A stretch of 62,863 bases of DNA from Clostridia bacterium (GTDB lineage Bacteria; Bacillota; Clostridia; Christensenellales; Aristaeellaceae). Position 1 is the stretch's first letter. Each line of letters starts with the position of its first letter. The position numbers were made by a program, and so were the translations under genes. The notes below the pieces were generated by a model. That model worked only from the letters and a program-made list of their open reading frames with translations. It searched no databases and was not told the origin of the DNA. Below, piece after piece: positions 8,844 through 47,530 of the stretch. The stretch is from positions 1 to 62,863 of the forward strand of contig JAFQOD010000070.1 of NCBI GenBank assembly GCA_017395685.1, written 5' to 3'.

Positions 8844-8872
8844 TTGACAAGCATGCGCCGTCGGGATAAAAT
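8844..8872 (+). promoter_or_regulatory. Promoter of the T-box operon
   Basis: TTGACA (8844-8849), 17 nt, TAAAAT (8867-8872). It places the RNA start near 8879, right before the T-box fold. Confidence 0.9.
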
Positions 8873-8878
8873 ATCCAT

Positions 8879-9151
8879 AATTTCATATCACTTGAAAGAC
8901 GATGACGAAGTCGGCCGAAACGGATGCTTTCAGAGAGCCGGTGGTTGGTGTAAACCGGCAGCGGAGGTTTCAAGTGCCCATCCCTTCCGAGTTGAAATCT
9001 TGAAATGTTTTCAAAGTAGAGGTTTACGTGAGGCTGCGTGAATGCACAGGGTTTGTTGGAACCCATTGAGGGGCAGCAACAGCTGCAATTTGAGTGGTAC
9101 CGCGGATGTATTTTCACCCGTCTCAAAGCAAGAACTTTGGGACGGTTTTTT
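8879..9151 (+). promoter_or_regulatory. T-box riboswitch, candidate specifier AUC (isoleucine)
   Basis: A tRNA-sensing leader that allows read-through when the matching tRNA is uncharged. Visible parts: stem I with AGAGAG (8931-8936) and apical hairpin CCGGT...ACCGG containing TTGGTGTAA; the lower 3' side CATCCCTTCCGAG resembling the usual specifier-CCTTTGAG region; the T-box GAGTGGTACCGCGG at 9092-9105; and a terminator at 9118. Aligning with the well-known glyQS leader puts the specifier at 8980-8982, AUC. The acceptor bulge TGGT demands discriminator A, which fits tRNA-Ile and rejects His (C) and Ser (G). A competing 9-bp pairing, 8889-8897 with 8968-8976, makes the specifier call uncertain. 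Confidence 0.88.
9118..9151 (+). terminator. T-box regulated terminator
   Basis: CCGTCTCAAAG pairs with CTTTGGGACGG (one G-T pair), 6-nt loop, six Ts. It overlaps the antiterminator partner region as expected for a T-box. Confidence 0.9.
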
Positions 9152-9172
9152 ATTTGAAGGAGGTTAGCGAGC

Positions 9173-11446
9173 ATGAAACAATTCAACCAGCATGTACAGG
9201 AAGTGGCCCTTCGTATCCGTGAAATGCGGCAGATCATGGGCTTTTCCATTGCTGAAATGGCGCAGCGTACTGAGGTTGGAGAATCCATTTATCTGGAATA
9301 TGAAAGCGGCACGATCGATCTGCCTTTTTCCTTTATTCATAAGTGTGCCCTGGCCTTCGGGATTGAACTTACTGATCTTCTTGAGGGCTATAGCGCCCAC
9401 TTGTCCAATTATGCCGTAACCCGCAAGGGCAAGGGCATCACCACCGCCAAGGAAAACGGCATTACCATCCAGAATCTGGCCCCCATGTTCCGCGGCAAAC
9501 TGGCGGAACCCTATTGGGTTAAATACGAATATAAGCCGGAACTGCAAAACCAGCCCATCCATACCGTCACTCACTCCGGTCAGGAATTCAACCTGGTTGT
9601 CAGCGGCACCCTGATGGTACGTGTCGGCGAAAAGACAGAAATCCTGAATGAAGGCGACAGCATCATCTACAATTCCAGCGCCCCTCACGGCATGATCGCC
9701 GTGGGCGGCCAGGATTGCACCTTCCTTGCTATGGTTCTTCCTGGTGAAGATGTGCCCGAGCAGGAGGTACGCAGGACCCTCGTCCCCACTCCCAAGCCGC
9801 AGCCCCTCTTTGTGGAGCAGTTTGTGGAGTGCGTTGAAGATGAAAATGGGGCGCTCGAATCCCTCTCTTTTAAAAACGAAGATAAATTCAATTTTGCCTT
9901 CGATATTGTGGATGCCATTGCTGATCGATACCCGGAAAAGCTGGCGATGCTGCATCTGGATGTAAATCAGAATGAACGCAGGTTCACCTTCAAGGATATG
10001 AAGGGGCTTTCCGCCCAGGCCGTCAATTATTTCCGTTCGCTGGGCATTGAACGAGGCGATCGTGTGCTTGTGATTCTCAAGCGCCATTGGCAGTTCTGGC
10101 CGGTTATGCTGGCGCTGCATAAGCTGGGCGCCATTCCCATTCCCGCTACCAATCAGCTGGTAGCGCATGATCTGGAATATCGGTTCAATGCTGCCGGAGT
10201 CAGCGCAATCCTGTGCACCGCTGATGGGGATGTTGCCCGTCAGGTGGATCTGGCCCTTCCCAATTCCCCCACCCTGAAGCACCGCATCCTGGTCAATGGT
10301 GATCGGGCAGGCTGGCATAGCTATAATAAGGAAAGCCTGCTCTTCTCCCACAAATACGAACGCCCGGCTGACGCCCCCTGCGGCAATGATCCCATGCTGA
10401 TGCTGTTCACCTCCGGAACTACAGGATATCCGAAGATCGCCACCCATAATTACAAGTATGCCCTTGGCCATTTTATCACTGCGAAATACTGGCACTGTGT
10501 TCAGCGGGACGGCCTGCACCTGACCATCTCCGACACCGGCTGGGGCAAGGCGCTGTGGGGAAAATTCTATGGCCAGTGGATGTGCGAAGGCGGCGTATTT
10601 ACCTATGACTTTGATCGCTTTGACGCCGCACAGATCCTGCCCATGTTCGCCAAATATCGCATTACTACATTCTGTGCGCCGCCTACCATGCTGCGGATGC
10701 TGTGCAAGCAGGATATCAGCAAATATGATCTTTCTTCCATCAAACATATGACCACTGCCGGTGAAGCCCTCAATCCTGAAGTATACCGCTTGTTCGAAGA
10801 AAAAACCGGTCTTCAGATCATGGAAGGCTTCGGCCAGACCGAAACAACCCTCTCCATCGCCAATCTTGCGGGCCGTAACCATAAGGTTGGCAGCATGGGC
10901 CGTCCCACTCCGCTGTACGATGTCTGCCTGATGGATCCGGATGGCAATCCCGTGCCCCCCGGCGCCAACGGCGAAATCTGCATCCGTGCGGGCGAAAAGG
11001 CGCCCTGCGGCCTGTTCATGGGATACTTCAAAGGCAGCGAACTGGATGAAGAAAAGACCCGTGAAGTGCTGCATGACGGCTGGTATCATACCGGTGATGT
11101 GGCCTGGCAGGATGAAAACGGCTTCCTAACCTATGTATCCCGTGTGGATGACGTCATCAAATCCTCCGGTTACCGTATCGGCCCCTTTGAAATCGAATCC
11201 GTTATCATGGAGCTGCCCTATGTTGTAGAATGCGGCGTTTCCGCTGCCCCGGATGAAGTGCGCGGCCAGGTTGTCAAGGCAAGCATCGTGCTGGCCAAGG
11301 GCACTGAACCTACAGAAGAACTGAAAAAAGAGATTCAAACTTACGTCAAGGAGCATACTGCACCTTATAAGTATCCCAGAATCGTGGTCTTCCGTGATGA
11401 GCTGCCCAAAACCATCTCCGGTAAGATCCAGCGCAATAAGCTATAA
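9173..11446 (+). CDS. HTH-cupin-acyl-CoA synthetase fusion (medium-chain ACS type)
   Basis: A 757-residue three-domain protein. Residues about 8-65 form an XRE-type helix-turn-helix (ALRIREMRQIMGFSIAEMAQ), about 120-200 a cupin with HTVTHSGQEFNLVVSG, and about 225-757 an adenylate-forming ligase: P-loop LFTSGTTGYPK at about 411, GFGQTETT, WYHTGD at about 638, and the catalytic lysine in PKTISGKIQRNKL. The ligase would make an acyl-CoA from acid, ATP and CoA; the sequence resembles the medium-chain/branched acyl group more than acetyl-CoA synthetase. GGAGG lies 9 nt before the ATG. The T-box upstream ties it to amino acid supply; the HTH may be a sensor or vestigial. Confidence 0.88.
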   Translation: MKQFNQHVQEVALRIREMRQIMGFSIAEMAQRTEVGESIYLEYESGTIDLPFSFIHKCALAFGIELTDLLEGYSAHLSNYAVTRKGKGITTAKENGITIQNLAPMFRGKLAEPYWVKYEYKPELQNQPIHTVTHSGQEFNLVVSGTLMVRVGEKTEILNEGDSIIYNSSAPHGMIAVGGQDCTFLAMVLPGEDVPEQEVRRTLVPTPKPQPLFVEQFVECVEDENGALESLSFKNEDKFNFAFDIVDAIADRYPEKLAMLHLDVNQNERRFTFKDMKGLSAQAVNYFRSLGIERGDRVLVILKRHWQFWPVMLALHKLGAIPIPATNQLVAHDLEYRFNAAGVSAILCTADGDVARQVDLALPNSPTLKHRILVNGDRAGWHSYNKESLLFSHKYERPADAPCGNDPMLMLFTSGTTGYPKIATHNYKYALGHFITAKYWHCVQRDGLHLTISDTGWGKALWGKFYGQWMCEGGVFTYDFDRFDAAQILPMFAKYRITTFCAPPTMLRMLCKQDISKYDLSSIKHMTTAGEALNPEVYRLFEEKTGLQIMEGFGQTETTLSIANLAGRNHKVGSMGRPTPLYDVCLMDPDGNPVPPGANGEICIRAGEKAPCGLFMGYFKGSELDEEKTREVLHDGWYHTGDVAWQDENGFLTYVSRVDDVIKSSGYRIGPFEIESVIMELPYVVECGVSAAPDEVRGQVVKASIVLAKGTEPTEELKKEIQTYVKEHTAPYKYPRIVVFRDELPKTISGKIQRNKL

Positions 11447-47443: not shown

Positions 47444-47530
47444 GCCGATGTGATGGAATTGGCAGACGTGACGGACTCAAAATCCGTTGATGGCGACATC
47501 GTGTGGGTTCGAGTCCCACCATCGGCACCA
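47444..47530 (+). tRNA. tRNA-Leu (anticodon CAA), CCA encoded
   Basis: An 87-nt class II tRNA: acceptor GCCGATG/CATCGGC, anticodon arm ACGGA-CTCAAAA-TCCGT giving CAA, a variable arm TGATGGCGACATCG, T-arm GTGGGTTCGAGTCCCAC, discriminator A and encoded CCA. It reads UUG codons, which fits the many leucine TTG codons of this genome. Confidence 0.97.

Follow-up and report, generated by a model that had tools for sequence, protein, structure and literature searches.

A T-box leader ahead of an HTH-cupin-acyl-CoA synthetase gene and a predicted tRNA-gated route from branched acids to isoleucine, valine and leucine

The window analysed here, a stretch of 62,863 nucleotides from a Clostridia bacterium of the family Aristaeellaceae (assembly GCA_017395685.1, contig JAFQOD010000070.1) that probably lives in an animal gut, harbours a complete T-box leader directly before a gene whose product combines a helix–turn–helix (HTH) domain, a cupin domain and an acyl-coenzyme A (acyl-CoA) synthetase. 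To judge by the gene content of the same draft genome, this locus is one third of a system for isoleucine, valine and leucine, in which each amino acid has a T-box and a ligase gene of its own. Very probably, the system activates branched acids on demand, carboxylates the activated acids reductively and transaminates the products, each branch being gated by its own transfer RNA (tRNA). The initial annotation of the window had described a single isoleucine route: this is amended, as the isoleucine ligase is one of three parallel enzymes placed behind isoleucine, valine and leucine T-boxes.

Rumen studies have described the chemistry of such a route since the 1960s, and T-boxes are a known RNA family. 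PMC7356843 presents branched acids as rumen precursors of isoleucine, valine and leucine and as old growth factors of ruminococci. The carboxylations reported by Allison, Robinson and others between 1962 and 1971, as cited in that article, pair acids and amino acids in the way proposed here: isovalerate yields leucine, isobutyrate valine and 2-methylbutyrate isoleucine. The older titles cited there concern whole bacteria, whereas the present proposal assigns the chemistry to dedicated ligase genes under amino-acid-specific switches. In the open-licence literature no paper was found that names branched-acid ligase genes or tRNA gating, and an earlier report elsewhere is possible; the term 'acyl-CoA' is absent from the main text of two T-box and regulatory-RNA surveys (PMC2494555, PMC3766115) and of a survey of gut amino-acid pathways (PMC9026213). 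The present locus, together with its relatives, provides candidate genes for the branched-acid route to the three amino acids. What began as a finding on nutrition thereby becomes a model at the level of genes that can be tested directly and that predicts substrate choice from one residue.

The leader matches the T-box family RF00230 at positions 8893–9128 (all window features given here lie on the plus strand unless stated) with 95.5 bits against a gathering score of 93 (E = 1.1e-19), the alignment covering positions 1–219 of the 219 in the model. It is one of three Rfam matches above the gathering score in the window, the others being two tRNAs, and ranks seventh among the 17 T-boxes of its own genome. 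T-boxes switch genes on when a tRNA is uncharged, that is, when the amino acid is scarce. In common with the family, the leader combines its full-length covariance match with a specifier loop, a TGGT bulge and a terminator alternative. The helix below the specifier loop is formed by a 5' strand GAAG (8907–8910), preceded by GATGA, and a 3' strand CTTC (8984–8987), as located in the sequence and by a motif parser. The antiterminator bulge TGGT, already noted in the initial annotation, lies at 9095–9098 and fits a tRNA end ACCA with discriminator A; it is present in 150 of 150 automatically parsed leaders, TGG having been a search requirement. The intrinsic terminator hairpin (9118–9145) has 11 pairs and is followed by a T6 tract; its folding energy is −16.6 kcal/mol (z −4.1), and none of 200 shuffled sequences is equally stable. 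The Rfam score and the domains of the downstream product, all over their Pfam cut-offs, confirm the complete T-box leader before an HTH-cupin-AMP-ligase gene. Two features set this leader apart from the family: it governs an acyl-CoA ligase, not a tRNA synthetase, a transporter or a known biosynthesis gene, and its specifier is followed by a C.

The specifier is AUC, an isoleucine codon (8980–8982), by Rfam alignment, by the parser and by conservation in orthologous leaders. The register was calibrated on T-boxes of the same genome that precede valS, pheS and ileS, as named by NCBIfam; the ileS piece is cut by the end of its locus and scores 512 versus 621 bits, under the cut-off, yet ileS is its best match. 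The parser, which requires AGAGA, a four-pair helix and GAG behind the helix, read 11 of the 17 T-boxes of the genome and assigned GUC to valS, UUC to pheS and AUC to ileS. The Rfam alignment concurs for valS and pheS and is gapped at the specifier for ileS; for further isoleucine, valine and leucine leaders it gives the same codons as the parser. The specifier might have been misread, with the leader sensing another amino acid, for instance alanine through a GCC a few bases upstream: a C as the base following a T-box specifier is unusual, and the Rfam posterior probability is only moderate at this site. Such a misreading is, however, extremely unlikely, since the register fits the valS, pheS and ileS leaders and is shared by the valine and leucine classes described below, and since AUC is constant in orthologous leaders that differ in the preceding three bases (CCC, CTC, CCT, CTT and others) and have C or, often, A after it. 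In 78 automatically parsed AUC leaders, this last position is C in 46, A in 31 and G in one. GCC and other registers were rejected, GCC being off the position calibrated on the three synthetase leaders; the covariance model and the comparison across leaders thus uphold the initial choice of AUC. The draft genome yields 43 tRNA matches, 42 of which were typed by ARAGORN; the remaining one, at window position 47444, carries a CAA anticodon as read by eye. tRNA-Val(UAC) and tRNA-Leu(GAG), which fit the valine and leucine leaders, are present.

The gene behind the leader (9173–11446) encodes a protein of 757 amino acids, identified as an isoleucine-type HTH-cupin-acyl-CoA synthetase by Pfam, NCBIfam, sequence and structure matches. 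An HTH_19 domain (residues 14–73, positions 9212–9391; 39.4 bits, cut-off 30.2) is followed by a Cupin_2 domain (residues 130–187, 9560–9733; 46.1 bits, cut-off 27.2), an AMP-binding domain (residues 249–619, 9917–11029; 216 bits in Pfam, over the cut-off) and an AMP-binding_C domain (residues 673–751, 11189–11425; 76.9 bits, over the cut-off). The best solved relative is 3etc, the Macs enzyme of Methanosarcina acetivorans, with 580 bits by sequence and rank 1 in Foldseek (E = 1.2e-66, 48% identity). The ligase part is shared with Macs, including the stretches SGT(T/A)G and GY(R/K)(I/V)GPFE, whereas the match starts only at residue 228 of the window protein and Macs is devoid of the HTH-cupin part. 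By its domains and the shared stretches, the window ligase is an AMP-forming, Macs-like medium/short-chain acyl-CoA synthetase. PMC10455477 gives 2-methylbutyrate as the preferred acyl substrate of Macs and Trp259 as critical in substrate binding. Trp462 of the window ligase (codon 10556–10558) aligns with this pocket residue, at a numbering offset of 23 set from Gly459-Tyr460-Lys461, and Trp462 and Gly458 agree with a 2-methylbutyrate-type Macs by alignment alone. The initial proposal of a 2-methylbutyrate ligase serving isoleucine synthesis is supported by this kinship, substrate and direction being predictions.

The two companion branches are found elsewhere in the genome. A valine-type paralogue, 60% identical to the window protein, is located on contig C46 (53118–55352) behind its own T-box with a GUA specifier that, at 90.3 bits, stays below the gathering score; a gene resembling P-loop nucleoside triphosphatases (NTPases), vorB, vorA and vorC are arranged divergently to this paralogue. 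On contig C76 a T-box with a CUC leucine specifier is followed, on one strand, by a LeuA-like gene, a gene for a triosephosphate isomerase (TIM)-barrel-ligase fusion and ilvE. The search for a 2-oxoacid:ferredoxin oxidoreductase that the initial annotation had suggested was successful: VorB (NF005507), encoded on contig C46 of the genome (G000), scores 454.7 bits against a cut-off of 399, and IlvE, at 482.5 bits, is likewise over its cut-off. One gene of each kind is over the cut-off in the genome.

VOR-type enzymes are able to carboxylate acyl-CoAs with reduced ferredoxin. In the proposed scheme, accumulation of uncharged tRNA-Ile would allow the T-box leader to read through its terminator, and the ligase would be made. 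This enzyme would convert 2-methylbutyrate, adenosine triphosphate (ATP) and CoA into 2-methylbutyryl-CoA, which VorBAC, a ferredoxin-dependent 2-oxoacid oxidoreductase, would carboxylate to 3-methyl-2-oxopentanoate; amination by IlvE would then deliver isoleucine. The paralogue behind the valine T-box, acting on isobutyrate, and the TIM-barrel-ligase behind the leucine T-box, acting on isovalerate, would feed the same VorBAC and IlvE. Each branch would be gated by its own tRNA, and the route would replace the absent IlvC/IlvD pathway. The leaders, specifiers and gene clusters are read directly from sequence, as is the failure to find ilvC and ilvD, whereas the ligase substrates, the direction of VOR and antitermination in the cell are predictions.

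A scan of named genomes detected at least 592 confirmed relatives; the best 80 loci, many of them cut by contig ends, are referred to as the 80 named loci. Their titles name metagenome-assembled genomes or uncultured bacteria, in many cases from gut or rumen. Together with unnamed relatives, these loci supplied 185 leaders before HTH-cupin-ligase or LeuA-like genes, of which 157 were kept after removal of 28 exact duplicates; unparsed leaders and T-boxes without such a gene were excluded. The automatic parse of 137 HTH-cupin-ligase leaders returned AUC in 78, GUA in 46, GUC in five, GUG in two and other codons in six, and that of 20 LeuA-like leaders CUC in 15, CUG in four and another codon in one. 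The parser thus accounts for 150 of the 157 readings, and seven odd ones were corrected by eye: in six the parser had preferred a wrong helix over one giving AUC, GUA or CUC, and the seventh, L103, reads GUC. The final assignment is 81 isoleucine and 56 valine specifiers among the 137 HTH-cupin-ligase leaders, and leucine in all 20 leaders of the leucine operon. As valine leaders read GUA, GUC or GUG, the third base changes while the meaning is kept. Parsed, non-duplicate ligase leaders are present in 70 of the 80 named loci, and two more are duplicates of parsed ones (L109, L113); AUC was read by eye in L092 and L111, the L093 leader is cut at a contig end and the L090 gene stands directly behind another ligase gene.

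Gene context among the 80 named loci ties these ligases to the later steps of the scheme: VorB is encoded in 42, VorA in 38, VorC in 31 and IlvE in 13, any of these in 44. At least two HTH-cupin-ligases occur in 38 loci, a LeuA-like gene in 23 and the TIM-ligase fusion in 23. A common order is isoleucine ligase, valine ligase, NTPase, vorB, vorA, vorC, with the leucine pair often upstream on either strand; L050 holds the full gene set, with ilvE in between. In 398 genomes sampled evenly from the phylum, 72 show a match at E ≤ 1e-150, which in most cases covers just the ligase part. A whole-length match without stop codons is found in five of the 398, the own genome included, and the fused form is therefore a minority trait of the phylum.

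Several gene products of these loci deserve a description of their own. The LeuA-like protein of the leucine operon (L048:7066-8484, minus strand) has kept its HMGL-like and allosteric LeuA_dimer domains. Two motifs were sought in such proteins, TLRDGEQ and the metal motif HxH: TLRDGEQ occurs in none of 28 distinct LeuA-like proteins, and HxH in none within the aligned stretch. The LeuA-like protein is therefore probably no longer catalytic and may serve to sense leucine. The leucine-type ligase (L048:4592-7069, minus strand) has as its fusion partner an AP_endonuc_2 (xylose-isomerase-like) TIM barrel, for which no part in activating acids is obvious. The small NTPase-like gene (L049:5933-6691, minus strand; L052:12557-13258, plus strand) was seen in 44 of the 80 named loci, frequently immediately ahead of vorB; CbiA is over its cut-off for the L052 copy and under it for the L049 copy. 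Within the own genome, the T-box of valS reads GUC versus GUA for that of the valine ligase (L009, L003), so the two leaders may sense different tRNA-Val isoacceptors; tRNA-Val species with UAC, GAC and CAC anticodons are present in this genome, and GUA is the specifier of 46 of 53 automatically parsed valine-ligase leaders.

The textbook pathway appears to be largely missing where the fused gene is found. Neither ilvC nor ilvD has a match in the own genome (ilvA, ilvB and leuA-D were not searched for), and among 60 genomes, the own included, ilvC is over its cut-off in 12 and ilvD in 13. When these genomes are grouped, ilvC is present in two of 36 with the fused gene, in none of nine with the ligase alone or split and in 10 of 15 with neither; for ilvD the figures are two, none and 11. 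Fisher tests of fused versus neither give p = 1.2e-5 for ilvC and 1.8e-6 for ilvD, with kinship ignored. Only one of 28 same-genus genomes searched has ilvC over the cut-off, and VorB passes its own in 45 of the 60. The findings suggest that the branched-acid route replaces the textbook pathway in the genus of the window. The initial annotation had envisaged an isoleucine scavenging route: the isoleucine-gated ligase is supported, whereas occasional scavenging gives way to what is probably the main or only route, because ilvC and ilvD were not found. Auxotrophy predictions based on ilvC and ilvD alone would label such organisms auxotrophs.

The same absence bears on a catabolic alternative, in which IlvE and VOR would break down branched amino acids oxidatively, leaving the acyl-CoAs to the ligases. 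Both enzymes can run in either direction, and amino acid fermentation is common among gut clostridia. However, T-boxes induce at amino acid scarcity, acid activation by AMP-forming ligases consumes ATP and no ilvC/ilvD route for making these amino acids was found, all of which renders the catabolic direction very unlikely.

A second alternative concerns lipids. MbcS (NF047394) is the top NCBIfam match of the window protein and, according to PMC10026030, an enzyme of Staphylococcus that activates 2-methylbutyrate and isobutyrate, hardly isovalerate, and serves fatty acid synthesis. The window ligase could by analogy supply the 2-methylbutyryl-CoA primer of anteiso fatty acids, its isoleucine T-box signalling only a shortage of isoleucine, the usual primer source, and this fits the absence of vor and ilvE from the vicinity of the window gene. 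Macs and MbcS both act on 2-methylbutyrate. The match of 390.8 bits is far under the MbcS cut-off of 850: the window protein may work like MbcS but is not filed as a member of that equivalog. Supply of a lipid primer is unlikely, given that relatives cluster with vor and/or ilvE in the 44 named loci mentioned above, that ilvC and ilvD were not found in the own genome and that the three specifier classes correspond to three amino acids, one of whose acids, isovalerate, is a poor MbcS substrate.

Beside the isolated position of the window gene and its low MbcS score, other observations weigh against a tRNA-gated route to the three amino acids. Folding of stem I alone is no better than that of shuffled sequences (z 0.25); as energy folding is uninformative here, the leader call depends on the covariance model and on comparison. 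tRNA-Ile(GAU) is not among the 42 ARAGORN-typed tRNAs of the draft genome. Four of the 80 named loci (L116, L122, L132, L145) have no T-box in the 520 nucleotides before the gene, and a motif search found none for the fused genes L063 and L064. Both routes coexist in two genomes (G024, G047), five of the 15 ligase-free genomes also have no ilvC (G017, G023, G042, G053, G054) and VorB, present in three ligase-free genomes (G038, G055, G059), is not special to the route. Nine genomes, of which six carry the fused gene (G001, G018, G019, G021, G027, G031), contain IlvD-like matches that score under the cut-off; such matches could be genuine dehydratases acting on other acids. Finally, the draft genome is 96% complete, and a missing gene could be a gap.

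The identity of the specifier is mirrored in the enzyme. A full-length tree was built from 129 proteins, 127 of them with a specifier; a partial or identical protein led to the removal of 10 of the 137 leaders. On this tree the isoleucine/valine label needs two changes, against a mean of 37.6 for shuffled labels (127 rows), and the number is still two when the own-genome paralogue is added and the separating columns are removed (128 rows). The main valine clade comprises 43 rows; a second one, of three rows from the own genus, is nested within the isoleucine-type part. A chimeric origin of this second clade was rejected for the two rows examined (L049, L059): in all five segments their closest neighbours beyond that clade are isoleucine types of the own genus. 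Less favourable are the trees of the ligase part alone, which need five changes (FastTree) or six (IQ-TREE), well-supported branches forcing two changes in each whole-ligase tree. Segment trees without the separating columns give two changes for the HTH-cupin part, eight, five and 11 for the others and five for the whole ligase part. To judge from these phylogenies, valine and isoleucine types have interchanged at least twice, the valine type having at least two origins; as the ligase-only trees need more changes, 'at least two origins' stands and 'exactly two' rests on the full-length tree.

Column 458 separates the two types perfectly. Residue 458 (codon 10544–10546) is Gly in all 81 isoleucine types and Ala in all 47 valine types (43 of 43 in the main clade, four of four in the second); the column was picked from 757 after the fact. 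In the structure model the residue belongs to helix 457–464, four residues or one helical turn before Trp462. A model from 10 alignment rows was weak, with a mean predicted local distance difference test (pLDDT) score of 68.0, and that from 62 rows reached 84.3; in the latter, residues 457–464 are helical, the block 451–460 still having a pLDDT of 69. Ala458 would add a methyl group where isobutyrate has one carbon fewer than 2-methylbutyrate, as would be expected, and the specifier would serve as an RNA read-out of the acid on which each ligase acts. All five T-box-preceded fused genes that were fetched later agree, four with isoleucine and Gly (L204 read by eye) and one with valine and Ala. 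The rule fails in L207, the sole split ligase with an isoleucine T-box, which has Met at 458, and the 17 ligases without a T-box have Ala in 11, Gly in four and Met in two; Ala being common there, Ala458 alone does not mean valine. As a control for convergence, 74 isoleucine-only clades were compared with the main valine clade: 67 share no fixed residues with it, three share one and one shares two, while three nested versions of one deep isoleucine clade share four. The second valine clade shares three (70, 187 and 458). Since the deep isoleucine clade shares four, the count of shared columns is not decisive; what matters is that 458 separates the types without exception.

These elements can be joined into a wider account: a group of gut and rumen clostridia gave up IlvC/IlvD and make isoleucine, valine and leucine from branched volatile fatty acids through three tRNA-gated ligases; the isoleucine and valine ligases double as HTH-cupin regulators, a dead LeuA senses leucine, and substrate and codon were switched together at least twice via Gly/Ala458. 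This account in its entirety is tentative and somewhat more likely to be wrong than right, its standing being lowered by the additional changes in the ligase-only trees and by the frequency of Ala458 without a T-box.

The N-terminal part of the window protein points to a further layer of control. It displays an HTH domain followed by a cupin domain, the order that defines XRE-cupin regulators; a sequence search with this part retrieved no solved relatives. PMC7901475 describes XRE-cupin proteins that repress metabolic genes in their neighbourhood and whose cupin domain presumably responds to metabolites of the pathway. The window protein shares their domain order and differs in that the HTH-cupin part, whose DNA binding is only putative, is fused to an enzyme; it would add a second, ligand-sensing control. 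Fifteen fetched loci (L192-L200, L205-L210) have an HTH-cupin open reading frame immediately next to a separate ligase frame, and a T-box was parsed before only one of these split pairs (L207, AUC). As the split pairs mostly have no parsed T-box, we infer an order that these arrangements suggest: a DNA-level switch came first, fusion to the enzyme followed and T-box control was added last.

Upstream of the leader, a promoter-like TTGACA-17-TAAAAT (8844–8872) matches the consensus at 11 of 12 positions, by consensus match only; five sites of this type were found versus 3.6 expected by chance. Just past the −10 box, an A+T-rich element at 8879–8889 (AATTTCATATC) recurs in isoleucine-type leaders in variants such as AATTGAA, AATTTGAATATC and similar words. 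AATTGAA is present in 12 of 63 non-redundant isoleucine leaders against 0.9 expected for that word, while the commonest 7-mer in 60 shuffled sets reaches a mean of 7.9 and a maximum of 12; the region and the looser patterns were picked after inspection. The element may be a candidate operator of the HTH part, or reflect kinship or chance.

The window gene stands between pgi and rpsI-rplM, neighbours that all lie on the minus strand, and is by this layout monocistronic. Two other T-boxes of the own genome (L008, L017) were noted: one with a parsed UAC specifier precedes a PdxR-like gene of the pyridoxal phosphate (PLP) fold (250 bits, cut-off 320), and a weak one of 40.9 bits precedes cysE (237 bits, over the cut-off).

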